Part shown: one piece after another, positions 15,198-37,402 of the stretch
How the letters are laid out: every line of letters begins with the position of its first letter
Position numbering within the stretch: the stretch's first letter is position 1
Assembly (NCBI RefSeq): GCF_020733635.1
Contig: NZ_JAJFZL010000001.1
Span: forward strand, 558,001 to 622,000
Length of the DNA: 64,000 nucleotides
Direction: 5' to 3'
Source of the DNA: Nocardia spumae
GTDB lineage: Bacteria > Actinomycetota > Actinomycetes > Mycobacteriales > Mycobacteriaceae
Notes under the pieces: generated by a model
What the model saw: the letters and a program-made list of their open reading frames with translations, nothing else
Database searches by the model: none
Told to the model about the DNA's origin: nothing
Made by a program: the position numbers and the translations under genes

Positions 15198-16544
15198 TCA
15201 GTTGGTGCGAACCCGCAGGCCGGGGTTGTCCGAGAGCACCTGATTCACCGGCTGCGCGAACAGCTGGGGGGCGTCGCCGGTCAGCGCGCCGATCAGGTTC
15301 GGGATCTCGCAGATCGGGTAGTCGGCCACCGAGGAGGCGCTGGAAATGCCCAGGGCCATGGTGCCGGTGACGATCGTGCCGCCCGAATCACCCGGCAGCG
15401 CGCAGATGTTCGCCGAGAACGACTGGGTCAGATCCCGGTCGCCGACCTGCACGGTCTGATCCACGGCATTGACCACGCCGCAGCTGAATCCGGTGCGCGA
15501 ACCCGACTTGCAGACCGGGGCGCCCACCACCGGATCCGCCACACCGGTGATCGCGATCGGCGCCGCACCCGGCACTCGGACCAGGTTGTTGGCGAAGCGG
15601 TCCCGCGCGCCCGCATCGATCGAGACGATCGAGTAGTCCTGGTTGCCCAGCACCGACTTCTGGAAGGTGCCCAGCTGCGCGCCGACGTGGTTGCCCGGCA
15701 GCAGTTCGAACATGGCCGGGGCGTTCGCGGTGCCGGCGGCCGGGATGTTCGGATCACAGTGGCCGGCGGTGATGTTCACCGGATTGCCGTTGCGGTCCAC
15801 ACCGTTGAAGCCGGTCGAGCAGACCAGCTGCATCTTGCCGGCCACCGAGGCGTAGGCGTCGCCGCCCGCACGAGGCGCGTTGGGCTGCTCACCGGCGATC
15901 GGCTGCGCCTGCGGATCGGACTCCGGCGGGCCCACCGGGGGCGCCGCCATCACGATCACGTGCGCCGGGTCGACGAAGCCCGGCATCGGCACACCGGCCT
16001 TGTCCACGCGCACGGCGATGCTGTTGTTGACCGTGTCGACGACCACTCCGCGCACCGCCTGCACGACCGCCTCCGGCTGGCCCGACAGCCACTGCTGGAA
16101 AGCGTTCTTCTCGCTGCGGAGCACGGTCTGGCTCTTGGCGACGTCCTTCACGGCGAATCCGGCGTCCTGCGCGGACTTCCTGGCGTCGTCGGACCCCTGG
16201 CCCGGAGCCAGCGCGACCACGGCCTTGCCGGCGTCGTCGAGCCACGCGCCCGCGAACGCCTGCGGGAACTGACGCTGTGCGGTGGTCGCGAAGGTCCCCA
16301 GGTGCTGGGCCACGTCCGCGCGATGCAGATACTCCTGCGGCGAGATCTTCAGATCGCGCTGCACTGCCGAGATCAGGTCGGCGGGCAGGTTCGGGGCCGG
16401 AGCGGGCGCCGGGTCGGCGGACGAGGTCGCCGCGAGCGGCCCGAGAACCAGAACCGCCGCCGAGGCGGCGACAGCCGCGCTACGGAGGCGGGTGCGCGGG
16501 GCTCGTCCCGCGGCGGACGACAGTCGGATGCGTGGCAGGAGCAT
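15198..16544 (-). CDS. Secreted chymotrypsin-like serine protease (S1 family) with pro-region
   Basis: A 448-residue exported protease. A long signal peptide (about residues 1-42, cleavage near SSA-DP) is followed by a ~170-residue pro-region of the alpha-lytic-protease kind and then the catalytic domain. The triad is visible: His in NITAGHCD, Asp in NQDYSIVSID, Ser in LPGDSGGTIV. Two cysteine pairs fit disulfides. TATAGT lies 6 nt before ATG 16544, so the mRNA is probably leaderless. The upstream gene at 16670 is a paralog with the same architecture. Substrate unknown. Confidence 0.9.
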   Translation of the reverse strand: MLLPRIRLSSAAGRAPRTRLRSAAVAASAAVLVLGPLAATSSADPAPAPAPNLPADLISAVQRDLKISPQEYLHRADVAQHLGTFATTAQRQFPQAFAGAWLDDAGKAVVALAPGQGSDDARKSAQDAGFAVKDVAKSQTVLRSEKNAFQQWLSGQPEAVVQAVRGVVVDTVNNSIAVRVDKAGVPMPGFVDPAHVIVMAAPPVGPPESDPQAQPIAGEQPNAPRAGGDAYASVAGKMQLVCSTGFNGVDRNGNPVNITAGHCDPNIPAAGTANAPAMFELLPGNHVGAQLGTFQKSVLGNQDYSIVSIDAGARDRFANNLVRVPGAAPIAITGVADPVVGAPVCKSGSRTGFSCGVVNAVDQTVQVGDRDLTQSFSANICALPGDSGGTIVTGTMALGISSASSVADYPICEIPNLIGALTGDAPQLFAQPVNQVLSDNPGLRVRTN

Positions 16545-16550
16545 GAGGCG

Positions 16551-16556
16551 ACTATA
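16551..16556 (-). promoter_or_regulatory. -10 hexamer, leaderless promoter of the first protease gene
   Basis: TATAGT on the minus strand ends 6 nt before ATG 16544, with no Shine-Dalgarno sequence between. It gives this gene a promoter separate from the upstream paralog. Confidence 0.6.
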
Positions 16557-16669
16557 TGGGGTTTGCGCGGCTATGCCTACTTGTCGCGGAGTTCGGCCGT
16601 AACCACACCCGGAGTACCGGATATGCGGGCACGCGACATCACCGGTAGACCAGCCGCGCGACCCCGGAA

Positions 16670-18061
16670 TCAGCCGGCGTTCGGCCGCGTCCGGACGGTG
16701 ATTCCCGAGCCGAGCCCGCCGCCGGAATTGGCGTCGATATCGGTGAGGATCTGCCGGATCGGGATGCCCAGCGTCGCGGTACCGCCGTAGGCCGCCAGAT
16801 CCATGTTCGCGGACCGGCAATCGGGTGCGTCGGCGGCGTTGGAACCGCTGGTGATACCCAGGGCGAGGGTGCCCGAGACGATGGCGCCGCCGCTGTCACC
16901 GCCGAGGGTGCAGGCCGAACTCGCGAAACCGCGGACCGTCTTGGATTCGCCCTCCGTGGTGAACAACTGTGTCTCGACCCGATCGGCGACCACGTAACCG
17001 CAGGTGAACGTCGAGGACTGGCCGGACTTGCAGATCGGAGCGCCGGTGATCGGCTCGGCGGTGCCGGTGACCGTCACGGTGGTGCCGTTGGCGCCGCGCA
17101 CCGACGGCTGGTCCATCCCCGCGCCCACGGCCTTGTCGTTGAGTTTGATCACCGAGTAGTCGAGTCCGGTATTGCCGCCCAGTTGCGCCTTGACGAAGGT
17201 GCCGAACTGCTGGCTGGCCTTCAGATTGCGCACATTGGGCAGATAGACACCGGCCGTGCCGTCGCCCTTGCCCAGGTTCGGATCGCAGTGTCCGGCACTG
17301 ATATTCAGCGCGTTCCCGGCGGCGTCGACGCTGTTGAATCCGAACGAGCACACATCCACCGACTTCAACGCGGAATCGTCGAGGGAGGTGGGAGCGCTGA
17401 TGTAGGTGTCACCCCCCATCGGGCGGTGTTCGACCGGACCGCCGCCGTCCGGCGACAGTACGACCTTGATGTTGGCGATCAGGGTCGGCAGGTTCAGCAG
17501 ATGTCCGGCGGGTGTGTTGGCCATGGTCAGTACGAGCTGGCTGTTCAGGAAATCGATGGCGACCGAGTTGATTCCGGACGACAGCTCGCGCGGCAGCCCG
17601 CCGACCCACTTGACCAGCTGATCGAGCGAGGTCTCCAGATTATCGGCCGAAATCGGCGCCAAGCGGGTCTGATAACCGGCGGAGTTGGCGATCCGGGCGG
17701 CGTCGAGTGAGGTGACCGCCATGATGGGCTTACCGTCGGCGCCCATCCAGGCACCGGCGAAGGCTTCGGGATGTTCGGAGCGGAATCCGTGGGCGTAGTC
17801 ACGCAATTGCTGTGCGCGGGCGGCGCGGTCCAGATATTCGGCGGGCGACATCTTCAGATCGCGGCCGATGGCCTGCACCAGTTCGGGCGGCAGCTGATCG
17901 GCGGGCAGCTGGGCCACGGCCGGATCCGCGAGGGCCGGCGAGGTGGCGATCCACGGGCCGAGAAGAAGGGCCGAAGCGAGGGCGGCAGCCGCTGCTTTCA
18001 CCGACGCGCGTGCCACCGAGGCGCGTCCGACCTTGGCGCGACGCGCCGCCAACTTGCGCAT
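16670..18061 (-). CDS. Secreted chymotrypsin-like serine protease (S1 family), tandem paralog
   Basis: A 463-residue exported protease, paralogous to the gene at 15198. The signal peptide (cleavage near ALA-DP around residue 46) is followed by a pro-region (LPADQLPPELVQAIGRDLKMSP, matched by NLPADLISAVQRDLKISP in the paralog) and the catalytic domain. Triad residues are His in NISAGHCD, Asp in TGLDYSVIKL and Ser in LGGDSGGAIV. GAAGGGA precedes ATG 18061 at good spacing. The paralogs differ most in the pro-region linker and in the loop before the serine, so their substrates may differ. Confidence 0.9.
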   Translation of the reverse strand: MRKLAARRAKVGRASVARASVKAAAAALASALLLGPWIATSPALADPAVAQLPADQLPPELVQAIGRDLKMSPAEYLDRAARAQQLRDYAHGFRSEHPEAFAGAWMGADGKPIMAVTSLDAARIANSAGYQTRLAPISADNLETSLDQLVKWVGGLPRELSSGINSVAIDFLNSQLVLTMANTPAGHLLNLPTLIANIKVVLSPDGGGPVEHRPMGGDTYISAPTSLDDSALKSVDVCSFGFNSVDAAGNALNISAGHCDPNLGKGDGTAGVYLPNVRNLKASQQFGTFVKAQLGGNTGLDYSVIKLNDKAVGAGMDQPSVRGANGTTVTVTGTAEPITGAPICKSGQSSTFTCGYVVADRVETQLFTTEGESKTVRGFASSACTLGGDSGGAIVSGTLALGITSGSNAADAPDCRSANMDLAAYGGTATLGIPIRQILTDIDANSGGGLGSGITVRTRPNAG

Positions 18062-18230: not shown

Positions 18231-19385
18231 TCAGGGAGTTGATTTCCACGGTTCCGGAACACCCGACGGCCACTCGAAGCCCGGTACCGAATCGAACGGG
18301 TCGGGGGTGGTCGTGGTGGTTCGCGGTCGGGTGGAGGGCCGCTGCCGGGTGGTGGATTCCGGTGTGGTGGTCGGAGTCCGGCCGACGGTGCTCGTCGGCG
18401 GGGGTGCCGGCGTGGTGGTGGTCGTCGGCGCCTCGGTGTATTCCGGCGCCGCCGGTTCCGGTGCGACCGCGGTGGCCGGCGGCGGGGGCGGGGGTGGCGC
18501 CTGGACGGTGGTGGTGATCGACGGGTGCGCCTCGGCCTCACCGGAGACCGAGGTGCCGGGCTGCTGTGACGCGGTGTCCCCGGGCAGCAGTACAGCGGCG
18601 GCGACCCCGCCGAGGGCCAGGCCCACCAGTGCGGCGGCCGCGGCGATCAGCAGCGGGGTGCGGCGATTCTTCTTCGGTTCGGCCGGTACCTCCGCCGGGG
18701 CCGCCTTGGTGGCCGCGACGGTCATCGGCTCCGGTACGGGTGTTTCCTGCGGCACCGGAATCGCCGCCGAATATGCCTGCGCGGTGGCGGCGGGCGCCGG
18801 TACCGCGGGCAGGACATCGGTGACCACCAGCGCGTTCTCGGCGCCGGCCGGATCGGGTGGGGTGGCGCCGGCCGGGGTCGACAGGACCGCGGCCAAGGCG
18901 GCGCGGGCGGCATCGCGGGCGTGGCCTCGGCCGTCCTCGGCCGCCGGCAGATCGCCCTCGCTTACCAGGACCACCGAGCGCAGGCCCAGGTAGTCCAGGG
19001 CCTCGCGCACACCGCGAATATGCTCGGGCGGCCAGTCGGCCGGGTGGGTCGCGTAGAACTCCGCCGGTCCGTTCAAATGATCGGCGGCCAGGTTGATCAG
19101 GCAGAAGATGGCGGTCGCGAGCAGATCCTCGGCACGGTAGGCCTCACCCGCGTCCACCGGGATACCGGCGGGATCGCCCACAGCGCGGACGAATCCGGTG
19201 ATCGAGTGGGAATGGCCCGGGGGCGCCTCACCACCGAGCGCGGTATCCCCGTCGTCGGACATGTGCAGAACCGACTCGCGGGTGATGTACAGGGGTTCGG
19301 GTGTGTCATCGGATTCGCCACCACTGGCGACTATCGCCGCGATGCACTCGTCCTCGGCGATCCGCAGGCCCACCCCTGTGGCCAT
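18231..19385 (-). CDS. Truncated Hsp70-like lobe fused to a membrane segment and Pro/Thr-rich tail
   Basis: A 384-residue protein, last gene of the hsp70-like/iniR operon. Residues 1-150 align by eye with the first lobe of the Hsp70-like protein at 21934: GIPVDAGEAYRAEDLLATAI against ILLPDGSSVAAADLVADTI, and ADWPPEHIRGVREALDYLGL against AWWSAHTVEAQRQALARAG. The second actin-fold lobe with its nucleotide motifs is absent. A linker, a single membrane helix (244-267) and a Thr/Pro-rich extracytoplasmic tail follow. ATG 19385 has GAGG 8 nt upstream. It probably cannot bind ATP; a scaffold or sensor role is inference. Confidence 0.75.
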   Translation of the reverse strand: MATGVGLRIAEDECIAAIVASGGESDDTPEPLYITRESVLHMSDDGDTALGGEAPPGHSHSITGFVRAVGDPAGIPVDAGEAYRAEDLLATAIFCLINLAADHLNGPAEFYATHPADWPPEHIRGVREALDYLGLRSVVLVSEGDLPAAEDGRGHARDAARAALAAVLSTPAGATPPDPAGAENALVVTDVLPAVPAPAATAQAYSAAIPVPQETPVPEPMTVAATKAAPAEVPAEPKKNRRTPLLIAAAAALVGLALGGVAAAVLLPGDTASQQPGTSVSGEAEAHPSITTTVQAPPPPPPPATAVAPEPAAPEYTEAPTTTTTPAPPPTSTVGRTPTTTPESTTRQRPSTRPRTTTTTPDPFDSVPGFEWPSGVPEPWKSTP

Positions 19386-19421
19386 CGTCAATACCTCGCT
19401 TCGGTGTCTCGAGCGCGGGAA

Positions 19422-21920
19422 TCACACGGCAGGCGAACCGTGCCCCATTGCGCGAAGCATCGACAATAGCTCCGACCGGGATCCGGCCCCGATCCGACGC
19501 CGGATCCGCGCGACATGATGCTCCACCGTCTTCGCCGAGATGTACAGCCGAGCGCCGATCTCACGGTAGGTAAGGCCCAGCAGGACCAGCTCGGCGACCT
19601 CGCGTTCGCGGTCGCTGAGTACGGACACGGCCGAATCGGCGGGAGCCCCGTCGGGTGCGAGCGCCCGATCGGGCACCGCGGACGGCCGGGCGTCGGCGCG
19701 GACTGTGCGAGCGAGCTTCAGCAGTGCGGTGGCCGTCGCGGGATCCCGGGAACTCAGGGCCGCCTCGCTGGCCAGCCGGGCGGCATCCCAGACCATCCCG
19801 ATCGCCGCCAGCCGCCGCACCGCCGCGGTCACCCGATCCTCGGCGACCTCGCCGCGCAGGACCAGCACCCAGGTGCGTCCGGCGTCGGCCAGGATCGCGG
19901 CGTGTGGATCACCCTCCTGCGCAGCGGATTTCAACCGGCGCGCCGGCGGTATCAGTTCGTCGGGGCGCTCGTGCGCGATGGCCGCCTGCAGTTCGTACCA
20001 GTGGAAGACGTTCGCCCAGGCCGGCGGATTACCGCAGCGGTGCAACACCTCTCGTGCCGCCTCCACCAGCCGGTTCATCCGCTCCTGATCGCCGAGCCGG
20101 ATACCGGCCAGCCAGAGTTCCCCGATCGGCAACAGTGCGGGCAGATCGACATCGACCTCGTCGCAGGTCGGCAGGGCCGCTTCCCAGGCCCGCTGCAGGA
20201 CGCCCGGATCACCGGCGCGGCGGGCGAGACCCACCCGGACACCATGTGCGAGCAGACGATCGCGCGGTGGCAGCGTCTCGGGTGCCAGGCCGACCAGGGT
20301 CTCGGCGGCGAGCTGTTCGTCACCGCCGAGCATCGCCGTCCACGCCGTCAGGACCCGGACCGGTGGATCGGCGGGATGCGCGTCACGCAGCGCGTCGGCG
20401 GCGCGGCGCGGCTCGCCCATGCTCAGGCAGAGCAGGGTCGCGGCCGTCACCGGTGGGCACGGCAGCATCCGGTCCGCGATCGTCTCGGTGCGGGCGAGCT
20501 GGATGAGGGCGGCCGCGGCAGCGGTTGCCGCACCGCGGGATCGTCCGGTGACCGTCTGTGCCAGTGCGGTGGTGAAGCGGTCGGCACGGGTATTGGTCTC
20601 GGTCGGGGGCCGCTGTGCCGCCGCGCCCGAGGCCGCGATCGCCTCGTCGGCCGCGCCACGCAAGTAGAACACCGCCGCGGCATCGCTGCGATCCGCGTCG
20701 GAGCGGGTCGCGGCGAGCCAGGAGTACAGGTGCGCCGCGCGATCGACCAGTCCGCGCCGGGCCTGGATGTTCGCGCAGATCCGCACGGCGGCCGACAGTT
20801 GCGCATCGGTGGTGTCGTCGGCGTCCAGGACCGGCTCGGCCAAGCGCAGGGCCCCCTCGTCGTCACCGGCACGCACCGCCGCGGTCGCGCGCGGGATCGC
20901 GATCGCCTGGGCGGGATAGCCTCCCGCGACCGCCGCGGTGTAGTAGCGGCTCGCCTCGTCGCCGGCGTTCTCGGCCGCGGCACGCAGGAATTCGGCGAGT
21001 CGGTCATCGCGCACACCGGATTCGGCGAGCAACAGCGCGGTGTGGTCGCGCAGCAGGCCGGACTCCAGCCGGGCGGCGAGCAGACGTCGCTGGATCGACA
21101 CGAAGCGCCGCTCGCCGACCAGGGTGCGCAGCGGTTCGATGGCCGGCGCCAGCAGCAGGTCGGCATCGGTGATCAGGGCGCCGGCACGGGCCCGGTCGAC
21201 GAATCCGATCGCGACGTCCTCGTCGATGGCGAGCACGTCGGCCAGTTCGCCGGGATCCAGACCGGCGCCGGTGGTGGCGACGGCGAGAACCTCCAGTAGC
21301 CGAGGTTCGGTGTCGTCGAGAAGAGTGCGCGCCCAGGCGGTTACCGCCTCCTCGACCGCCTCGATACCGCCGTCCATCCGGGCGGCGCAGGCAGCGGTGA
21401 GCGCCGCGGTCACGCCGCCCGGAATGCCGCCGGTGAGCCGGTGGACGTGTTCGACGACCGGACGCGGCACCGTCATTCCCAATTCCCGTGCGAACGGGCC
21501 GATATCGGAGAAGCTCAGCGGGCGGAGCTCGAGAATCCGGCCGCGCCGCGACACCGCATCGGACAGGGCGCGCAGCGCGGTGTCGTGCGGCTGCGGCCGG
21601 GTGGCGATGATCAGGGTGCGGGAATCCGATTCCACCGCGGCCAACAGTTTGTCCATCTGGAACTGGTCCAGGGTGTGGGCATCGTCGACGATGACCGCGG
21701 AGTTGGCGTCCGCGGGTGTCGTCGCGCTCGCGTCGTCGCGGCAGCCGATACCCCGGCGGCGCAATCGATTCCGGATGGCGGCGAGCAACTCCGACTTCCC
21801 GGTACCGCAGCGGCCCCGGATCAGATAGACGAGCGGATCCGGAGACTCCGAATCCAGCTCACGAAGAATGTCGCGGGCGCCGGGCAGGGCGCCGAGTGCG
21901 AGCGTCACGGTACCGGCCAC
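19422..21920 (-). CDS. iniR: IniR-type STAND ATPase transcriptional regulator with LuxR helix-turn-helix
   Basis: An 832-residue regulator. A P-loop (GRCGTGKS, 36-43) and Walker B (AVIVDDAHTLDQ) form the N-terminal NTPase. A long helical TPR-like middle region leads to a C-terminal LuxR helix-turn-helix (LSDREREVAELVLLGLTYREIGARL). Its place beside iniBAC and its architecture match mycobacterial IniR (Rv0339c), reported to activate iniBAC under cell-wall stress in response to trehalose. GTG 21920 is preceded by GAGGAAACGAGG. It starts 13 bp after the stop of the Hsp70-like gene and is followed after 36 bp by the truncated Hsp70-like gene, so the three form an operon. Confidence 0.88.
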   Translation of the reverse strand: MAGTVTLALGALPGARDILRELDSESPDPLVYLIRGRCGTGKSELLAAIRNRLRRRGIGCRDDASATTPADANSAVIVDDAHTLDQFQMDKLLAAVESDSRTLIIATRPQPHDTALRALSDAVSRRGRILELRPLSFSDIGPFARELGMTVPRPVVEHVHRLTGGIPGGVTAALTAACAARMDGGIEAVEEAVTAWARTLLDDTEPRLLEVLAVATTGAGLDPGELADVLAIDEDVAIGFVDRARAGALITDADLLLAPAIEPLRTLVGERRFVSIQRRLLAARLESGLLRDHTALLLAESGVRDDRLAEFLRAAAENAGDEASRYYTAAVAGGYPAQAIAIPRATAAVRAGDDEGALRLAEPVLDADDTTDAQLSAAVRICANIQARRGLVDRAAHLYSWLAATRSDADRSDAAAVFYLRGAADEAIAASGAAAQRPPTETNTRADRFTTALAQTVTGRSRGAATAAAAALIQLARTETIADRMLPCPPVTAATLLCLSMGEPRRAADALRDAHPADPPVRVLTAWTAMLGGDEQLAAETLVGLAPETLPPRDRLLAHGVRVGLARRAGDPGVLQRAWEAALPTCDEVDVDLPALLPIGELWLAGIRLGDQERMNRLVEAAREVLHRCGNPPAWANVFHWYELQAAIAHERPDELIPPARRLKSAAQEGDPHAAILADAGRTWVLVLRGEVAEDRVTAAVRRLAAIGMVWDAARLASEAALSSRDPATATALLKLARTVRADARPSAVPDRALAPDGAPADSAVSVLSDREREVAELVLLGLTYREIGARLYISAKTVEHHVARIRRRIGAGSRSELLSMLRAMGHGSPAV

Positions 21921-21933
21921 GGTCCTCGTTTCC

Positions 21934-23682
21934 TCAGTTGTCCTGGTGTGGGAGCACTTTGCCCGGCACCTGCAACACGGTGCCGACGGTGTTGCCGACC
22001 TGGTCCAACCCGTTGTTCAGGGTGTTGCCCAGCGAACTGCCGGGCGCACTCGGTTGCGAGGGCTGGGAGGGCGCCGACGGCGCCGACGGCACCGATGGCG
22101 GTTGTGCGGCCGTCTGCGGGGGCGACTGCGGTGACGGCGAGTTCGGTGCGGGTGCGTTGGGAGCGGGTGCGTTCTGCGCCGGCACGTCCGCCGCGGGGGC
22201 GGGCGCCGCCGCGTTCGGCGCCGCCACGGTGCCCGGGCCATCGGCCGCCGGGGTGTTCACCGTCGCCGCGTTGGGCGCGGCGGCACCTGGGACGGAGGGG
22301 TTCCGGCCGGACGAATCGACCTGCGGCGCACCGGATTTCGCATCCTGCACGGGAACGACCCCCGCAACGGCCGAGTGTGCGGAGGCGGTCGTGGGCGCCA
22401 CCGAGGTGGCCGCCGCGGGCGCGGGTGTCGACGAGGGGCCACTCGCGGTGCCCAAGGCCAGGGTCCCGGTCGCGAGCGCACCCACCGCGATCGCGGCTCC
22501 GGCGAGGAAGGTGGCTCGCCGCCACCGGCCGGAACCGCCCGGGGCGGCGGTATCGGCAGGCGGCGGTTCGATCGTGGTCCGGGCGTCGATCGGGGCCGGC
22601 GCCGTCGTCTGGACCTCATCCGAAACGATCTGCGGGATGGCGCTTTCCGAGACCGCCAGCGCCTGTGTCGCCGGGGTGGCGGCTTCGGTTTCGGACCACA
22701 GATCCGCGGCGAGCAGCGCGGCGCCGCGCGCGCTGATCGATCCGGGATCGTCGATCGGGGCCAGGGGAACGGCGAATGCGCCGGAGACCACCTCGGTCAG
22801 CAGGCCGATCGAGGCGCCACCGCCGGTGAGCAGGATTCGCCCGACCTCGTCGATGCCGATACCCGCCCGCCGTACCGCCTCGTGCACGAGCGCCATCGAT
22901 TCGGTCAGCGGGGCGCGGAGCAGGTCCTCCCACTCGTCGCGGACCAGCCGGACGTCACGGGCGGTGCCGGCCAGCCGCACCGGGACGGTCGTCGCGGTAT
23001 TGGCGGAAAGGTGGTGTTTGGCGGCGGCGCAACGGTTTCTGAGGACCGCCAATTCTTGTTCGACAACCGGGTCGAAGGGGTCGAAATCCCTTTCTCCCAA
23101 CGCGTTTGCCAGCACGTAGCGCATGGTCAGGAGATCGAATTCCGCGCCGGAGATGCCGGTCGCGCGAACAGGCTCGCCGAGTAGGCCCGAGTGTGGGCCC
23201 GAACCCACCACCGACACCGTCGTGCCGGTCGCGCCGAGATCGTAGACGACCACCGGGGTCTCGGGCGGGAGTGCGGTCCGGGCTTCGGCCCGGCGCAGTG
23301 CGGCGAGAGGTTCCGGGACCAGTACCACCGCATCGGATCCGGCCCGCGCGAGTGCCTGCCGTTGGGCCTCGACGGTGTGCGCCGACCACCACGCGGGCAC
23401 GGTGGCGACCGCGGACACCGGATCGAAATCGGCCACGACCTGGCTGATCGTGTCCGCCACGAGATCGGCGGCGGCAACCGAGGAACCGTCGGGCAGCAGG
23501 ATGTCGACCGGATCGCCCACGCGGGACAACACATTCTCCGACAATTCCGGCATCGATCCGGCGCGATGCCGGCGAATGTGAACAGAGATATTTTCCGGGT
23601 CGGCGCTCGCGGTCGCGGAGCCGGTCGCGGCCACTGTGCGCGACGACCCGACCGTGATGCCGAGCGTCAGGCCCTGAGTCAT
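21934..23682 (-). CDS. Hsp70-like protein with C-terminal membrane anchor and Pro/Ala-rich tail
   Basis: A 582-residue protein, first gene of the iniR operon. Residues 1-330 form an Hsp70/actin-like fold. Phosphate-1 is degenerate (LGITVGSSRT instead of GIDLGTT), phosphate-2 is YDLGATGTT at 147-155, and the adenosine motif LLTGGGAS lies at 284-291. No peptide-binding domain follows. Instead there is a linker, one membrane helix (390-412) and a ~170-residue Pro/Ala-rich tail ending in an amphipathic segment. ATG 23682 has AGGGG upstream. It faces iniB across 252 bp. Its operon with iniR suggests a part in sensing or relaying envelope stress; that is inference. Confidence 0.8.
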   Translation of the reverse strand: MTQGLTLGITVGSSRTVAATGSATASADPENISVHIRRHRAGSMPELSENVLSRVGDPVDILLPDGSSVAAADLVADTISQVVADFDPVSAVATVPAWWSAHTVEAQRQALARAGSDAVVLVPEPLAALRRAEARTALPPETPVVVYDLGATGTTVSVVGSGPHSGLLGEPVRATGISGAEFDLLTMRYVLANALGERDFDPFDPVVEQELAVLRNRCAAAKHHLSANTATTVPVRLAGTARDVRLVRDEWEDLLRAPLTESMALVHEAVRRAGIGIDEVGRILLTGGGASIGLLTEVVSGAFAVPLAPIDDPGSISARGAALLAADLWSETEAATPATQALAVSESAIPQIVSDEVQTTAPAPIDARTTIEPPPADTAAPGGSGRWRRATFLAGAAIAVGALATGTLALGTASGPSSTPAPAAATSVAPTTASAHSAVAGVVPVQDAKSGAPQVDSSGRNPSVPGAAAPNAATVNTPAADGPGTVAAPNAAAPAPAADVPAQNAPAPNAPAPNSPSPQSPPQTAAQPPSVPSAPSAPSQPSQPSAPGSSLGNTLNNGLDQVGNTVGTVLQVPGKVLPHQDN

Positions 23683-23782
23683 TCGGGAACCCCTGTCGTT
23701 GAAATTCGCGGTCGTCACGACCTAACACCGGTGTCGGTTGCCGGAGTGCGGGCGTTACCGCCGATCCGCGAGGTTCAGGGAA

Positions 23783-23814
23783 ATTCCCCTAATGTCGCGG
23801 ATTCCCCTATCGCG
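23783..23814. promoter_or_regulatory. Direct repeat in the iniR-operon/iniB divergent promoter
   Basis: Two adjacent copies of an ATTCCCCTA...CGCG element (23783-23800 and 23801-23814) differ by a 4-nt insertion. Tandem direct repeats between divergent promoters are candidate activator boxes, here for IniR. Confidence 0.45.
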
Positions 23815-23845
23815 CCCATTGTGGAAATTGAGGGATTCACCCCGA

Positions 23846-23876
23846 TTCACGTAACGCCGGGCGTTCTTAGCGTGAA
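23846..23876. promoter_or_regulatory. Inverted repeat upstream of iniB
   Basis: TTCACG/CGTGAA arms enclose AACGCC/GGCGTT arms; the two halves differ by a 4-nt asymmetry. It lies 59-89 bp before the iniB start, where a promoter operator would be expected. Confidence 0.4.
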
Positions 23877-23934
23877 AGGCAATTCGACTGCTGCGGATCG
23901 CCCGATGGTCCGCCGATCCAGGAGACGATCTGCG

Positions 23935-25638
23935 ATGACCCCCAACGCCATTCTCGAATTCATCCTCACGTTGCTCCGCGACCACGAGGCCGCGGTCGGC
24001 TACTGCGCGAATCCATCCGAATCGCTGTGCGCGGCCGGACTGGAGGCCGTGACGCCGGAGGACATCGCCGCCGTCGCGCCGATGGTCGCCGAATCCGCCC
24101 TGGTCACGGGCGGCTCGCAGCTGGCGGCCATCGTGGCGGCGGGCGGTGGTGCGGGCGTCGCGGCCGGCGCCGGCGGTACCGCGGCCGCGACCACCGAGGC
24201 CAATCTGGGCGCGGGTGCCGCGCTCGGTGGTGAGACCGGCATCGAAGCCGGGACCGGACTGGGCATCGGGCTCGGGGCGGGCGGCGGCCTGGGGGCGGAT
24301 CTAGGCGCGGGCCTGGCCACCGGACTCGGTGCCGCGGCGTCGGTCGGTGCCGGGCTCGAAGCCGGTCTCACCGCGGGGCTCGGAGCGCTGACCGGAGTCG
24401 CGGTCGGCCTGGGCACCGCGGTGTCCGGGTCCGGGCAGGTCGGAATAGACCTCGGTCTCTCGGCCGGAGCGACCGGCGTCGCCGATGCCGTCACCCAAGC
24501 GGGTGCGAACCTGTCCGCCGAGCTCAGCGCCGGTATCCAGTCCGGAATCGACGTTGCCGCGGATACCGGCGCCGGCCTCGGCGCGCAGCTGGGTGGCGCG
24601 CTCAGCGGTGCCGCACAGGCGGGCGCCGGGCTGGGCGCGCAGGTGGGCAGCGCCTTCGAAGGCGCGGCCCAGGCCGGTGCGGGTCTCGGTGCCGCACTCG
24701 GCGGTGCGGCCGGTGCGGGGATCGGTGGCGCGCTCGGCGCCGGAACCGGGCTGGGCGCGGGACTCGAGACGAGTCTGTCCGGAGCCGCCGTTGCCGCGGC
24801 CGGTGCGGGACTGGGCGGCGTGCTGAACGGCGCCACGCAGGTCGGCGATCTCGGCGCTGCTCTCGGCGGCGCCGCACAGGCCGGCACGGATGTGGGCGCC
24901 GTGCTGGACGGTGCCGCGAATGCCGGGCTGGGTGCGGCGGCGACCGGTTCCACCGGGCTCGAGACCGGCCTGACCAGCGGGGTGCAGGGCGGGATCGACG
25001 GCGGTTCGCAGATCGGTTCCGCCCTGTCCGGTGCGCTGTCCGGTGGTACGGCGGCGGGCGCGCACACCGCCGGTGATCTCTCCACATCGCTGTCGGGCAC
25101 TGCCGCATCGGGTCTGCATTCGGCCGGTGACCTGTCGAGTTCGCTGTCCGGCTCGGCCGATTCGGCTCTGCACACCGGTGCCGACGCATCGACCGCGTTG
25201 TCGGGGTTCGGCGGTGGACTGTCGACGAACCTGTCCGGCTCGGCCGATTCCGGGCTGCATGCCGGAACCGATACCTCGTCGGCGCTGTCGAGTGCGGCCG
25301 GGGCCGGGCTGCACTCGGTCGGCGATGCCGCGTCGTCCGCCGCGAGCTCGGCGAGCGGCGATCTGGGATCGACGGCCGCGAGCACCGCGCACGCCGGGCC
25401 GGGCGGCGATTCCGCACTGGGCGGCTCAGCCGGGACCTGGTCGGGCGTGGACGTCTCCCATGCCTTCGGATCCGGTATCGACAGCACGCTGTCGGGAAGT
25501 GCCCACAGCTCGCTCGGTGGCGGCATCGACACTGCGGGGCACGCGGATTCGGGCCTGTTCGGCGATACCTCCGGTCATGCGTCGACGGTCACCGATACCC
25601 ATGCCGCCGGTGACATCACCGGCGGATTCCTGCACTGA
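23935..25638 (+). CDS. iniB: IniB-like Gly/Ala-rich protein
   Basis: A 567-residue protein. The conserved IniB-type N-terminal domain spans about residues 1-55 (ILEFILTLLRDHEAAVGYCANP, then AVTPEDIAAVAPMVAE). The remainder is low-complexity: first Gly/Ala/Leu repeats (GAGLGAQLGGALSGAAQ), then Ser/His/Gly repeats (SGLHSAGDLSSSLSG units). There is no signal peptide. In mycobacteria iniB heads the isoniazid-inducible iniBAC operon. GGAG lies ~10 nt before ATG 23935. iniA follows after 28 bp. The repeat body probably varies in length between strains. Confidence 0.85.
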   Translation: MTPNAILEFILTLLRDHEAAVGYCANPSESLCAAGLEAVTPEDIAAVAPMVAESALVTGGSQLAAIVAAGGGAGVAAGAGGTAAATTEANLGAGAALGGETGIEAGTGLGIGLGAGGGLGADLGAGLATGLGAAASVGAGLEAGLTAGLGALTGVAVGLGTAVSGSGQVGIDLGLSAGATGVADAVTQAGANLSAELSAGIQSGIDVAADTGAGLGAQLGGALSGAAQAGAGLGAQVGSAFEGAAQAGAGLGAALGGAAGAGIGGALGAGTGLGAGLETSLSGAAVAAAGAGLGGVLNGATQVGDLGAALGGAAQAGTDVGAVLDGAANAGLGAAATGSTGLETGLTSGVQGGIDGGSQIGSALSGALSGGTAAGAHTAGDLSTSLSGTAASGLHSAGDLSSSLSGSADSALHTGADASTALSGFGGGLSTNLSGSADSGLHAGTDTSSALSSAAGAGLHSVGDAASSAASSASGDLGSTAASTAHAGPGGDSALGGSAGTWSGVDVSHAFGSGIDSTLSGSAHSSLGGGIDTAGHADSGLFGDTSGHASTVTDTHAAGDITGGFLH

Positions 25639-25666
25639 TCACCGTGCGGACGACGAAAGGGATCGG

Positions 25667-27517
25667 GTGGCAACGGATATGAACACTGTGGTCGCGGCGG
25701 ATACCGCGGAGGCACCGGCCTCGCCGCTGTCGCGCATTCTCGCCGAAACCATCGCCGCCGCCCGTGCCGCCGATCGCGACGATCTGGTCGGCCGGCTCGA
25801 GGTGCTGGCCGACCGGATCCGCGATCCCCGCCGCCGGATCGTGGTGGCGGGCTTGGGCAATCAGGGCAAGAGTCAATTCGTCAACGCCCTGCTGAATCTC
25901 GAGATCAGCCCGGTGGGCGACGATGCGACGACCACGGTGCCGATCGTGCTCGCGCACGGTTCCCAGGCCCGCGCGCAGCTGGTGATCGCGGGCGCCTCGG
26001 GTGACGAGCGCGATCTCCGGCGAATACCGGTGCCGCTCGAGGAGATTCGCGCCGTCGGCGCGCGGTCGCCACACGGCCGGGTGCTGCGGGTGGAGGTCGA
26101 GCTGCCGAATCCGCTGCTGGCCGACGGCGTCGTCGTCATCGACACCCCGCCGGTCGGCGGCCATGCGACGGCCACGTCGGCGGCGGTGCTCGCGCTCGCT
26201 CCGGCGGCCGACGCGGTGCTCGTGCTGTCGGACGCGTCCACCGAACTCACCGAACCCGAGGTCGAGTTCCTGCGCCAGGTGCGGCAGTTGTGCCCCGCGG
26301 TGGCGCTGGTCCTGAGCAAGATCGATCTGTACCCGCACTGGCGTCAGGTGCTCGAGGCGGACCGATCCCATCTGGAGCGACATCGGCTGGTGCTGCCGAT
26401 CGTTCCGGTGTCGTCGGTGCTGCGCAGTCATGCGGTGCGCCTGCAGGATCAACAGCTGGGCCGTGAATCCGGATTCGGGGTGCTGTTCGATTTCCTGCGC
26501 GAACAGGTGGTGGCGCGGGATCAGGCCGCCGCCCGGCGCGCGGTGGCACTCGACATCTCCGCCGCCGCCGAACATCTCGCGCTGGCGCTCAGCAGCGAAC
26601 TGGTCGCGTTGCGCGACCCCGCGCGCGGTGCGGCGGCCATCCGGGAACTGCGAACCGCGAAGGCGCAGGCGGAGGATCTGCATCGCCGCACGGCGGCCTG
26701 GCAGCAGACCCTCGGCGACGGCATCACCGATCTGGCCGGCGATATCGACCACGATCTTCGAGATCGGTTGCGCACCATCGGCAGAACAGCCGAGGACTGG
26801 ATCGACGACAACGATCCGGGCCGGCTGTGGGAGCAGCTCGAGCAGTGGCTGACGCAGACCACCGACACCGCTGTCGGCGACAACCTGCTGTGGACCCACC
26901 AGCGCGCGATCCATCTCGCCGAGCGGGTGGCCGCCCATTTCCTCGAATTCGGTGCGGTGGATCTGCCCTCGGTGCGGTCCGGATCCGCGGCCGGCGAGAC
27001 ACGGGTGGCCGCGGTGACGCTCGCCGATCTCGAACCCGATCTCGGCCTCGGGCACAAACTGCTCGTCGGAATGCGCGGTTCCTACGGCGGCATGGTGATG
27101 GTCGGGCTGGCCAGTACCGTCGCCGGACTGGCCTTGATCAACCCGGTGTCGCTGGGTGCGGGAGTTCTGCTGGGTAGCAAGGCCTTCCGCGACGACAAGC
27201 GGGAACGGCTGGCCCGGCGCCGCAGCGAGGCGAAGGGGGCGGTGCGCCGCTATCTCGACGACGTGAGCTTCGAAGCGGGTAAGGAGTCCCGCGATCGCCT
27301 GCACCGCATCCATCGCATCCTGCGCGATCACTTCACCGGTATCGCCGATCGCAGTCTGCGGTCGATCAACGATTCGCTGCAGGGCGCGCAGGACGCGGCC
27401 GGTGTGGAGACCGCGCAGCGCGACCAGCGGTGCGCGGAACTCGATCGGCAGCTGCGGGTGGTGGCCGAACTGCGGCGCTACGCCGACTCCGTACTGCCGA
27501 GCGCCCCCGCGTCCTGA
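25667..27517 (+). CDS. iniA: IniA dynamin-like GTPase
   Basis: A 616-residue bacterial dynamin-like protein. The GTPase motifs are G1 GLGNQGKS (62-69), the G2-region threonines DDATTT, G3 DTPP and G4 SKID. A long helical stalk follows, with a hydrophobic paddle-like patch (GGMVMVGLASTVAGLALINPVSLGAGVLLG) that fits membrane insertion. Mycobacterial IniA binds and remodels membranes, and its loss raises sensitivity to cell-wall drugs. GTG 25667 is chosen because AAAGGG lies 5 nt upstream; ATG 25679 is the alternative. It is co-transcribed with iniB (28-bp gap). Confidence 0.9.
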   Translation: MATDMNTVVAADTAEAPASPLSRILAETIAAARAADRDDLVGRLEVLADRIRDPRRRIVVAGLGNQGKSQFVNALLNLEISPVGDDATTTVPIVLAHGSQARAQLVIAGASGDERDLRRIPVPLEEIRAVGARSPHGRVLRVEVELPNPLLADGVVVIDTPPVGGHATATSAAVLALAPAADAVLVLSDASTELTEPEVEFLRQVRQLCPAVALVLSKIDLYPHWRQVLEADRSHLERHRLVLPIVPVSSVLRSHAVRLQDQQLGRESGFGVLFDFLREQVVARDQAAARRAVALDISAAAEHLALALSSELVALRDPARGAAAIRELRTAKAQAEDLHRRTAAWQQTLGDGITDLAGDIDHDLRDRLRTIGRTAEDWIDDNDPGRLWEQLEQWLTQTTDTAVGDNLLWTHQRAIHLAERVAAHFLEFGAVDLPSVRSGSAAGETRVAAVTLADLEPDLGLGHKLLVGMRGSYGGMVMVGLASTVAGLALINPVSLGAGVLLGSKAFRDDKRERLARRRSEAKGAVRRYLDDVSFEAGKESRDRLHRIHRILRDHFTGIADRSLRSINDSLQGAQDAAGVETAQRDQRCAELDRQLRVVAELRRYADSVLPSAPAS

Positions 27518-27547
27518 GCCGGCCGTGCCCACCGGGAAACGAGTGGT

Positions 27548-27573
27548 GGCGCCGCCGCCCGGGCGGCGGCGCC
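27548..27573. terminator. 26-bp perfect palindrome between iniA and iniC
   Basis: GGCGCCGCCGCCC is followed directly by its reverse complement. It lies 30 bp past the iniA stop and just before the iniC promoter. A strong hairpin here could terminate or attenuate the iniBA transcript. Confidence 0.6.
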
Positions 27574-27585
27574 GGCCCGCTCGGG

Positions 27586-27591
27586 TACCGT
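27586..27591 (+). promoter_or_regulatory. -10 hexamer, possible leaderless promoter of iniC
   Basis: TACCGT ends 6 nt before GTG 27598 and there is no Shine-Dalgarno sequence. With the palindrome just upstream, iniC may be transcribed separately from iniBA. Confidence 0.5.
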
Positions 27592-27597
27592 AGCGGC

Positions 27598-29199
27598 GTG
27601 AGTTACCAGGTCAGCGACCGGGCGCCCGGGATCGCGGGCGAAGCGCACCTGTTGGTCGCGGCCGCGCGGCAGGCCTTCGCGCCGCATTCGGCCCCGGCGC
27701 GGCTGCTCGGCGACTGTGCGCGGCGCCTCGAACAACCGCTGCGCGTGGCGCTGGCCGGTCAGCTCAAAGCCGGAAAGTCGACGTTGCTCAACGCACTGGT
27801 GGGTCAGGACATCGCCCCGACCGATGCCACCGAGTGCACTCGGATGGTGACCTGGTACCGGCACGGTTCGGCGCCACGGGTGACGGCCCTGGCCGCGGAC
27901 GGCGCGCACGCCGATGTGGCGGTACGCCGCACACCCGGTGCCGACGGCCTGCCCGGTGCGCACGGGCTGAGCTTCGATCTGTCGGCTCTGCGCTGGAATA
28001 CCGCCGGCGATCACGAGGTCGACCACCTGGACGTGCAATGGCCGACGGCCACTCTGGCCCGGACCACCATCATCGATACGCCGGGGACGTCCTCGCTGTC
28101 GCGTGAGGTGTCGCTGCGCACCTCCACGCTGCTCGCCCCGGAGCCGGATGCCGCGGTGGCGCTGCCCGAGGCCGACGCGGTGGTGTATCTGCTGCGCCGC
28201 CTCGACGCCGCCGATATCGGATTCCTCGAGCGCATCGGTGCGGGACACGAAGAGCAGCAGGGTATCTCGGGTCCGTTGGGAGTGATCGGGGTGGTCTCCC
28301 GCGCGGACGAGATCGGTGCGGGCCGTATCGACGCCCTGCATTCGGCCCGGGAGGTATCGGCCCGCTTCGCCACCGAACTGGAGCGAACGGGCCTGTGCCA
28401 GGAGGTGATTCCGGTCGCGGGCCTGCTCGCCTTCGCGGCCGCGACCTTGCGTCAACGCGAATTCGATGCCTTCGAGGCCTTGGCCGGTGTGTCGACCGAG
28501 GACCTGAGCGTCGCGCTGCTGTCGGCCGACCGGTTCTCGCACCCGGAGCTGCCGCTGCCGGTGCCGGCGCGACTGCGCGCCCACCTCGCCGCCCGCTTCG
28601 GTCTGTTCGGCATTCGGATGGCCGTGACCCTGATCCGGCTCGGTGTCCGCGATTCCGCCGCATTGGCGGCGGAATTGGCGCAGCGCAGCGGTGTGGACGA
28701 GTTGCGATCGGTGCTCGATACCCAATTCGCGCAGCGCGCCGATCAGTTGAAGGCGCATTCGGCGCTGACCGCGGTCGCGCGCATCGTGGCCGCGCACCCG
28801 GGAACTCGTGCCGACGAGTTGCTACCGCGCATCCACAGGCTGTTGGCGGATGTGCACGGATTCGCGGAACTCCGATTGCTCGGCCGACTGCGCACCGACG
28901 AACTGCCCCTGCCCGCCGACGATCTCGCGGAGTTGCATCGCCTGATCGGCGGAGCCGGGATCGCGCCGCATCTGCGGCTCGGACTACCCGTGGATTCCGC
29001 ACCGGACATGCTGCGCACCCGTGCCGTCGCGGCGGTGAACAAATGGCGGGCCCGCGCCCGCCACCCCCTCGCGGATCAGCTCACCACCAACGCGTGCCTG
29101 ACCGCGGTCCGCAGCGCGGAAGGTCTGGTGGTGCAGTTGCGGGAACCGGAGACCGCGCCACTGCAGCAGGTCCGGCGACCGCCACGCTTCCGGAGCTGA
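27598..29199 (+). CDS. iniC: IniC dynamin-like GTPase
   Basis: A 533-residue dynamin-like protein, partner of IniA. Motifs are G1 GQLKAGKS (54-61), the G2-region threonine in DATECTRMV, G3 DTPGTSS and G4 SRADE. The C-terminal ~250 residues are helical. IniA and IniC are thought to act together at the membrane. Its start follows a 26-bp palindrome and a -10-like hexamer, unlike the tight coupling expected in one operon. GTG 27598 is the only start that fits the N-terminus of the family without overlapping the palindrome. Confidence 0.88.
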   Translation: MSYQVSDRAPGIAGEAHLLVAAARQAFAPHSAPARLLGDCARRLEQPLRVALAGQLKAGKSTLLNALVGQDIAPTDATECTRMVTWYRHGSAPRVTALAADGAHADVAVRRTPGADGLPGAHGLSFDLSALRWNTAGDHEVDHLDVQWPTATLARTTIIDTPGTSSLSREVSLRTSTLLAPEPDAAVALPEADAVVYLLRRLDAADIGFLERIGAGHEEQQGISGPLGVIGVVSRADEIGAGRIDALHSAREVSARFATELERTGLCQEVIPVAGLLAFAAATLRQREFDAFEALAGVSTEDLSVALLSADRFSHPELPLPVPARLRAHLAARFGLFGIRMAVTLIRLGVRDSAALAAELAQRSGVDELRSVLDTQFAQRADQLKAHSALTAVARIVAAHPGTRADELLPRIHRLLADVHGFAELRLLGRLRTDELPLPADDLAELHRLIGGAGIAPHLRLGLPVDSAPDMLRTRAVAAVNKWRARARHPLADQLTTNACLTAVRSAEGLVVQLREPETAPLQQVRRPPRFRS

Positions 29200-35396: not shown

Positions 35397-35554
35397 GTTG
35401 CTGAGGACCGTGCTCCGTGCGGTGTCAGGGGCCGAACCGTCAGGTACGGCAAGACCCTCGGGTACGGCAAGGTCCGACCCGGTGCGAGACCTTCGTGCCG
35501 AGCAGGCCCACCCTGCACCACCCACACAGTTACATCACCAAGGAGGAACCCACT

Positions 35555-37398
<1,844 letters not shown>

Positions 37399-37402
<4 letters not shown>

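Follow-up and report, generated by a model that had tools for sequence, protein, structure and literature searches.

The window analysed here is a 64,000-nucleotide stretch of Nocardia spumae (contig NZ_JAJFZL010000001.1, positions 558,001 to 622,000 of the forward strand), and this study concerns the genes in it that surround a homologue of the regulator IniR. Upstream of iniR lies a gene for an Hsp70-like protein, termed Hsp70A here, and downstream a shorter one, Hsp70B; the three form a compact unit divergent from iniB-iniA-iniC. The features, in window positions, are as follows:

21934-23682, minus strand: Hsp70A, with an ATG start; the open frame extends to 23718
19422-21920, minus strand: IniR-type STAND regulator, with NF038181 and PF00196 matches
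18231-19385, minus strand: Hsp70B, a predicted lobe I-only Hsp70-fold domain with a membrane segment and a P/T-rich tail
23935-25638, plus strand: iniB, matching the IniB N-terminal domain NF038175 at 58.7 bits (cut-off 40)
25646-27517, plus strand: iniA, a dynamin-like GTPase (PF00350, Dynamin_N, 3.4e-13), with an approximate start
27430-29199, plus strand: iniC, a dynamin-like GTPase (PF00350, Dynamin_N, 1.4e-11), an open frame with an uncertain start
23785-23809, minus strand: directly repeated pair of TAGGGGA boxes with 18 bp spacing, a candidate IniR site

By these coordinates Hsp70A and IniR are separated by 13 bp and IniR and Hsp70B by 36 bp, while the Hsp70A and iniB starts, on opposite strands, lie 252 bp apart; the same three minus-strand genes and distances had been given in the initial annotation.

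The window IniR matches NF038181 with 484.7 bits over residues 13-825, that is, its whole length, below the equivalog cut-off of 750. It contains an N-terminal nucleoside triphosphatase (NTPase) domain with the P-loop GRCGTGKS and a C-terminal LuxR DNA-binding domain (PF00196, 766-821), and its gene adjoins iniB-iniA-iniC, so that the domains and the neighbourhood of an IniR are all present. In Mycobacterium, IniR is described as activating iniBAC on wall stress or trehalose (Boot et al., PMC5760070). The Mycobacterium proteins (Rv0339c, MMAR_0612) share the STAND-LuxR type, the domain order and the iniBA(C) neighbourhood with the window protein, which differs from them in falling below the NCBIfam equivalog cut-off and in having Hsp70A at the place where iniB* lies between iniR and iniB in Mycobacterium (Boot et al.). 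The available text of Boot et al. gives no Hsp70 partner role for the mycobacterial IniR.

The linkage of Hsp70A and iniR was surveyed in an even draw of 251 genomes of the family (Mycobacteriaceae in the GTDB lineage), 134 of which had IniR at 1e-30 and had their neighbourhoods read, and in a scan of named genomes that gave the best 80 of at least 552 iniR loci, the named loci nearest to the window being Nocardia. The named set and the even-draw (unnamed) set share species. Loci with room, defined as at least 1 kb upstream of iniR, exclude 9 of the 134 even-draw and 15 of the 80 named loci. A same-strand Hsp70A gene was found immediately upstream of iniR in 122 of 125 even-draw loci with room and in 61 of 65 named ones; these and later counts depend on a profile made from 169 upstream genes that the window Hsp70A matched in 214 loci. 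If iniR is taken to begin at its earliest in-frame start codon (real starts may be later), the two genes are separated by -37 to +31 bp in all but one of the 122, and a 4-bp overlap was commonest (23 loci). In genus group g29, Hsp70A is upstream in 12 of 14 loci and an Hsp70-like gene downstream in five of the 14. Three loci of the genus g24 keep Hsp70A, iniR and the TAGGGGA boxes described below with no iniBAC within about 7.9 kb upstream; iniA lies 14-18 kb away on the same contig, among the matches listed. The Hsp70A-iniR linkage is far beyond chance.

Beyond the family, 200 genomes of the order were searched, giving 42 with IniR at 1e-40. A gene counted as upstream here if it was on the same strand and no more than 2.5 kb from the part of IniR that matched, and the interval itself was read in 13 loci. 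Hsp70A lies upstream in 39 of the 42 loci, as 23 strong matches and 16 found by a wider profile, which was applied to 17 further loci and gave an upstream match by coordinates in all except G463. In the remaining two outgroups (G310 and G400) Hsp70A stands beside iniA on another contig, among the matches listed. The pairing thus extends over several families of the order, and the Hsp70-IniR unit that the initial annotation proposed is conserved well outside this genome, at 122 of 125 family and 39 of 42 outgroup loci.

Such conservation could in principle reflect operon structure that holds the genes together with no joint function, and the whole region is indeed conserved, with iniB in 106 and iniA in 100 of the 110 loci that have 7 kb upstream. 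The downstream side is less constant, however, with an Hsp70-like gene of either size in 76 of 128 loci and a same-strand protease relative in 87 of 128, and the pairing spans several families of the order as well as repeated losses of the IniR NTPase. This explanation is very improbable, and hitchhiking was rejected as the main reading because the downstream side is so much more variable.

Hsp70A matches PF00012 at E 9.7e-18 and is predicted to have a complete two-lobe Hsp70/actin-fold domain, as in an Hsp70 nucleotide-binding fold. It has no substrate-binding domain: the match ends at profile position 375 of 599 and is followed by one membrane segment and a low-complexity tail rich in P, A, T and S, which is probably extracytoplasmic. 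In DnaK, the aspartates D8 and D194 are those of the catalytic Mg site. The window Hsp70A has a threonine at the first of these positions and so lacks the aspartate pair of Hsp70/DnaK. Within the family, the pocket retains the first aspartate in two of 120 sequences, the second-phosphate aspartate in 118 of 120 and the adenosine GG in at least 119 of 120, whereas the outgroup proteins are reversed, with the first aspartate in 12 of 13 and the second in four of 13 (read by eye). From these residues Hsp70A appears to be a degenerate ATPase, the family being without one catalytic aspartate and most of the outgroups read without the other. Compared with the DnaK/Hsp70 chaperones, then, Hsp70A has no substrate-binding domain, an altered catalytic aspartate and, in the family, an anchor and tail, and Hsp70B has a single predicted lobe.

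The membrane segment, called by a hydropathy window rather than by a dedicated predictor, is present in 179 of 183 family Hsp70A (the named and unnamed sets overlap), with a median tail of 173 residues. No C-terminal segment was seen in seven of the 13 outgroup Hsp70A read, and these keep the pairing with iniR; three of the six that have one carry tails of only 20, 37 and 26 residues. These observations bear on the relay put forward in the initial annotation, in which the two Hsp70-like proteins would detect wall damage with their external tails and signal it across the membrane to IniR. The near-constant anchor and long tail of the family proteins would suit a relay, as would the segment in Hsp70B, and the secreted serine proteases downstream of iniR (87 of 128 loci) could act on the tails. 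Yet the pairing does not need a membrane span with a long external tail: the segment-less outgroup proteins retain it, and five of those seven also keep an upstream TAGGGG. The tail therefore cannot be the core of the partnership, and with the anchor missing from seven of 13 outgroup Hsp70A, relaying a signal through the membrane is improbable as the core function. Boot et al., moreover, report trehalose as the cue. The relay, which overlaps with the explanation preferred below, is unlikely.

A different kind of evidence comes from IniR itself. The 121 IniR sequences compared were picked for an upstream Hsp70A, save those of loci L268 and L269, and 13 had been dropped (contig ends, broken or short frames, and locus L281). 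The NTPase domain is missing in 24 of the 121, requiring at least six changes on a FastTree IniR tree, and either the P-loop lysine or the whole domain is missing in 46, with at least nine changes. All 46 (24 plus 22) have Hsp70A upstream, in a sample chosen for it save L268 and L269. Among full-length IniR proteins the lysine is kept in 76 of 98, and among loci with room and no upstream Hsp70A it is kept in six of seven (L268 and L269, and by eye L093, L098, L104 and L105), not in L281. That IniR often drops its ATPase beside an Hsp70A that is seldom dropped suggests that Hsp70A matters to the switch. An extra gene between iniR and Hsp70B, resembling the N-terminal NTPase half of IniR only, was observed in the N. 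cyriacigeorgica loci L088 (2827-4389) and L090 and in four unnamed loci, L155-L158, from the genus of the window.

TAGGGGA occurs between iniB and Hsp70A in 85 of the 89 regions from the unnamed set and 49 of the 50 from the named set, compared with a mean of 4.2 and a maximum of 8 in 20 shuffles of all 139 regions; 44 of the 183 Hsp70A loci gave no such region (iniB not located, or contig end). The box consensus is (A/G)TTAGGGGA(T/A), with one orientation dominant (194 against 18) and with 18 or 15 bp the most frequent spacing of the direct repeats. Across 121 unnamed loci, 168 hits fall in a 700-bp zone around the start of Hsp70A and 79 outside it, a 51-fold difference in density. In the 7.07-Mb genome the perfect 18-bp tandem is present only at 23785-23809, and its rarity fits a dedicated regulator; copies with up to two mismatches number 18 in the same genome, not above the reversed control (43). 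In L268 and L269, which have no upstream Hsp70A, boxes directly precede iniR and recur some 830 bp upstream of it in the direction of iniB, and in g24 they sit upstream of Hsp70A-iniR although iniBAC is not within about 7.9 kb. TAGGGG also precedes Hsp70A in 11 of the 13 outgroup loci read (not L302 and L310), a count with no shuffle control. A scan of 23600-24000 for sigma-70-type promoters found none.

The boxes are candidate IniR sites, to which IniR would bind. By chromatin immunoprecipitation sequencing, IniR has been placed directly upstream of iniBAC in M. tuberculosis (PMC5760070), and a separate site for the repressor HpoR has been reported in the iniBAC promoter (PMC13413693). The core of the present boxes resembles the GGGGA(T/G) core of the MalT box, for which the consensus GGGGA(T/G)GAGG is reported (PMC7567727); the flanks differ.

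Taking these results together, it is on balance probable that Hsp70A and IniR constitute one dedicated regulatory unit, in which the two proteins would be in contact. Hsp70A, an Hsp70-fold protein that lacks a substrate-binding domain and has changes in its active site, would most likely use its nucleotide-binding domain, chiefly lobe I, to bind IniR at the cytosolic face of the membrane, and would set the activity of IniR. The favoured sign is restraint of IniR, lifted by envelope stress (trehalose, nucleotide state), because the closest functioning precedent, MalT, is kept at the maltose transporter according to the discussion in Boot et al. (PMC5760070). Freed IniR might then bind the tandem (A/G)TTAGGGGA(T/A) boxes and switch on iniBAC together with its own Hsp70A-iniR operon. 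Where IniR has no NTPase, Hsp70A would remain as the sole component that binds nucleotide, and Hsp70B may be a second, lineage-specific partner or competitor. The likeness to MalT and the maltose transporter of E. coli lies in a STAND LuxR-type activator, a membrane-side partner (putative here) and GGGGAT-like direct-repeat boxes. The partner of MalT at that transporter is MalK. It is an ABC transporter ATPase and not an Hsp70 fold, and the box at the present locus is TTAGGGGA with 18- or 15-bp spacing.

A more far-reaching proposal, offered tentatively and less likely than not to be correct, is that a catalytically dead Hsp70 fold has become a dedicated, near-obligate co-regulator of a STAND factor, with the switch running on nucleotide binding by the IniR-docked Hsp70 lobe and not on the ATPase of IniR itself. 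This single claim would take in the dropping of different catalytic aspartates by lineage, the cutting back of lobe II more than once and the repeated deletion of the IniR NTPase. Hsp70B would then be the extreme case, an Hsp70 cut to one lobe.

Several findings weigh against a dedicated Hsp70A-IniR unit. Distance correlation favours IniR over neither IniA, IniC nor the protease: given IniC, Hsp70A and IniR show a partial correlation of 0.19, against 0.71 for Hsp70A and IniC given IniR, and the corresponding pairs of values are 0.56 and 0.65 when IniA is the third protein and 0.63 and 0.65 when the protease is. In M. marinum and M. tuberculosis, IniR is described as controlling iniBAC with only iniB* between iniR and iniB (PMC5760070), so that Hsp70A beside iniR is not needed everywhere, and purified IniR is reported to multimerise without trehalose (PMC5760070). 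Four named Nocardia loci (L093, L098, L104 and L105) have no upstream Hsp70A. The same is true of L268 and L269, where an Hsp70 gene converges on iniC; these two and L281 are the even-draw exceptions without a same-strand upstream Hsp70A. L281, with an IniR-like frame of just 287 residues matched over 513-749 only and an Hsp70 gene on the opposite strand, is one locus with neither NTPase nor same-strand Hsp70A. The co-occurrence counts speak for the unit, but are inflated by shared descent: of the 251 genomes (IniR at 1e-30, Hsp70A at 1e-40), 127 have both proteins, seven IniR only, 11 Hsp70A only and 106 neither. In six of the seven IniR-only genomes the contig stops upstream of iniR or close to there, and in the seventh (G069, L271) the Hsp70A at that place is divergent.

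Mycobacterial Hsp70-like genes inside or 3' of iniBAC, or convergent on iniC, were observed in L138 (1952-3841, minus strand), L140 (717-2489, minus strand), L268 (1-1716) and L269. The L268 gene clusters with mycobacterial Hsp70A in the Hsp70 family tree. Because this tree has long branches and a poorly trimmed row (A_L166), it was used, with caution, only to show that mycobacterial paralogues group with mycobacterial Hsp70A.

The main rival to a dedicated regulatory unit is that Hsp70A and Hsp70B are effectors aiding the dynamins IniA and IniC in membrane repair and lie beside iniR only for co-induction. Hsp70A distances follow IniC best, 38 of the 42 outgroup loci have iniA upstream of iniR in divergent orientation, a second locus in the same genome joins an IniA-like dynamin to two Hsp70-like genes, and the boxes suggest that Hsp70A is itself induced. 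Rv0312 and Rv2264c are Hsp70-like membrane proteins whose genes are not known to lie beside iniR. The paralogue Rv0312/MSMEG_0692 has been reported as part of the interactome of FhaA, a protein of polar growth (PMC11898655), and the same source describes Rv0312 as Pro/Thr-rich, with one membrane segment and ATP binding, features seen or predicted in Hsp70A as well. On the other hand, the tight and often overlapping pairing is with iniR (122 of 125), even where iniBAC is 14-18 kb away, and the outgroup Hsp70A without a membrane segment fit a membrane effector poorly. An effector role is rather unlikely, and Hsp70A as a dedicated partner of IniR is the preferred interpretation.

Hsp70B gave no Pfam match at E 0.01, but aligns to Hsp70A over lobe I only with 99.7% probability. 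Its structural model, with a predicted local distance difference test (pLDDT) score of 88.6, spans DnaK 1-357 with only 165 aligned residues, and Hsp70B is accordingly predicted to be an intact single-lobe Hsp70 of lobe I and a closing helix, with no lobe II. It has at least 255 relatives; among the 120 listed, those named are Nocardia, none has a Pfam domain and most are labelled 'hypothetical protein'. Mean column identity is 61% (32 sequences). Hsp70B is an established small family and not a decayed gene, and the 'truncated' protein of the initial annotation is better described as a conserved single-lobe one; a pseudogene was ruled out on this identity and the confident single-lobe model. 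Short Hsp70-like genes 3' of iniR were also seen in Rhodococcus, Skermania and Antrihabitans loci, with a membrane segment near residue 210-260.

The iniBAC response is a well-known mycobacterial response to wall damage and a drug-screen readout. IniR is the switch of this envelope-stress operon in Nocardia, Rhodococcus and mycobacteria, and the near-constant presence beside iniR of a gene for a degenerate Hsp70-like protein suggests an unrecognised protein partner of the switch. How IniR senses damage becomes directly testable with such a gene at almost all iniR loci examined in the order and with a candidate operator. Both the STAND and the Hsp70 fields would find it surprising that a STAND NTPase is repeatedly lost next to an Hsp70 fold that is kept, and that a single-lobe Hsp70 is stable. 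The initial annotation knew of no description of such a unit, which is nearly right: in the open-licence literature none of the titles or abstract openings listed describes an Hsp70-IniR unit, and no paper on an IniR site or a single-lobe Hsp70 was found, although the account in Boot et al. (2017) qualifies the statement. The new points are the TAGGGGA boxes, the repeated loss of the IniR NTPase, the apparently degenerate ATPase of Hsp70A and the predicted single-lobe Hsp70B.

Two further genes lie downstream of Hsp70B:

16670-18061, minus strand: secreted alpha-lytic/streptogrisin-type serine protease with a pro-region (PDB matches 2pfe and 3ure)
15198-16820, minus strand: second alpha-lytic/streptogrisin-type protease, an open frame with an internal true start and a 218-bit match to the first

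The second carries TAGHC and GDSGG motifs (by eye). Serine proteases are frequent neighbours, and their membership of the Hsp70A-iniR unit is unproven. Scanning the window for tRNAs and for Rfam families at gathering scores gave no match. A dnaK gene, identified by its N-terminal sequence, lies on the plus strand at 35417-37399, about 12 kb from Hsp70A, so that canonical and degenerate Hsp70 genes are close neighbours in the window. The second locus in the same genome (about 2.144-2.163 Mb, among the matches listed) holds the IniA-like dynamin (42% identity) and two Hsp70-like genes within about 18 kb; its items are L288:6409-8337, L288:15824-17170 and L289:4539-6830, with ABC transporter genes between them.

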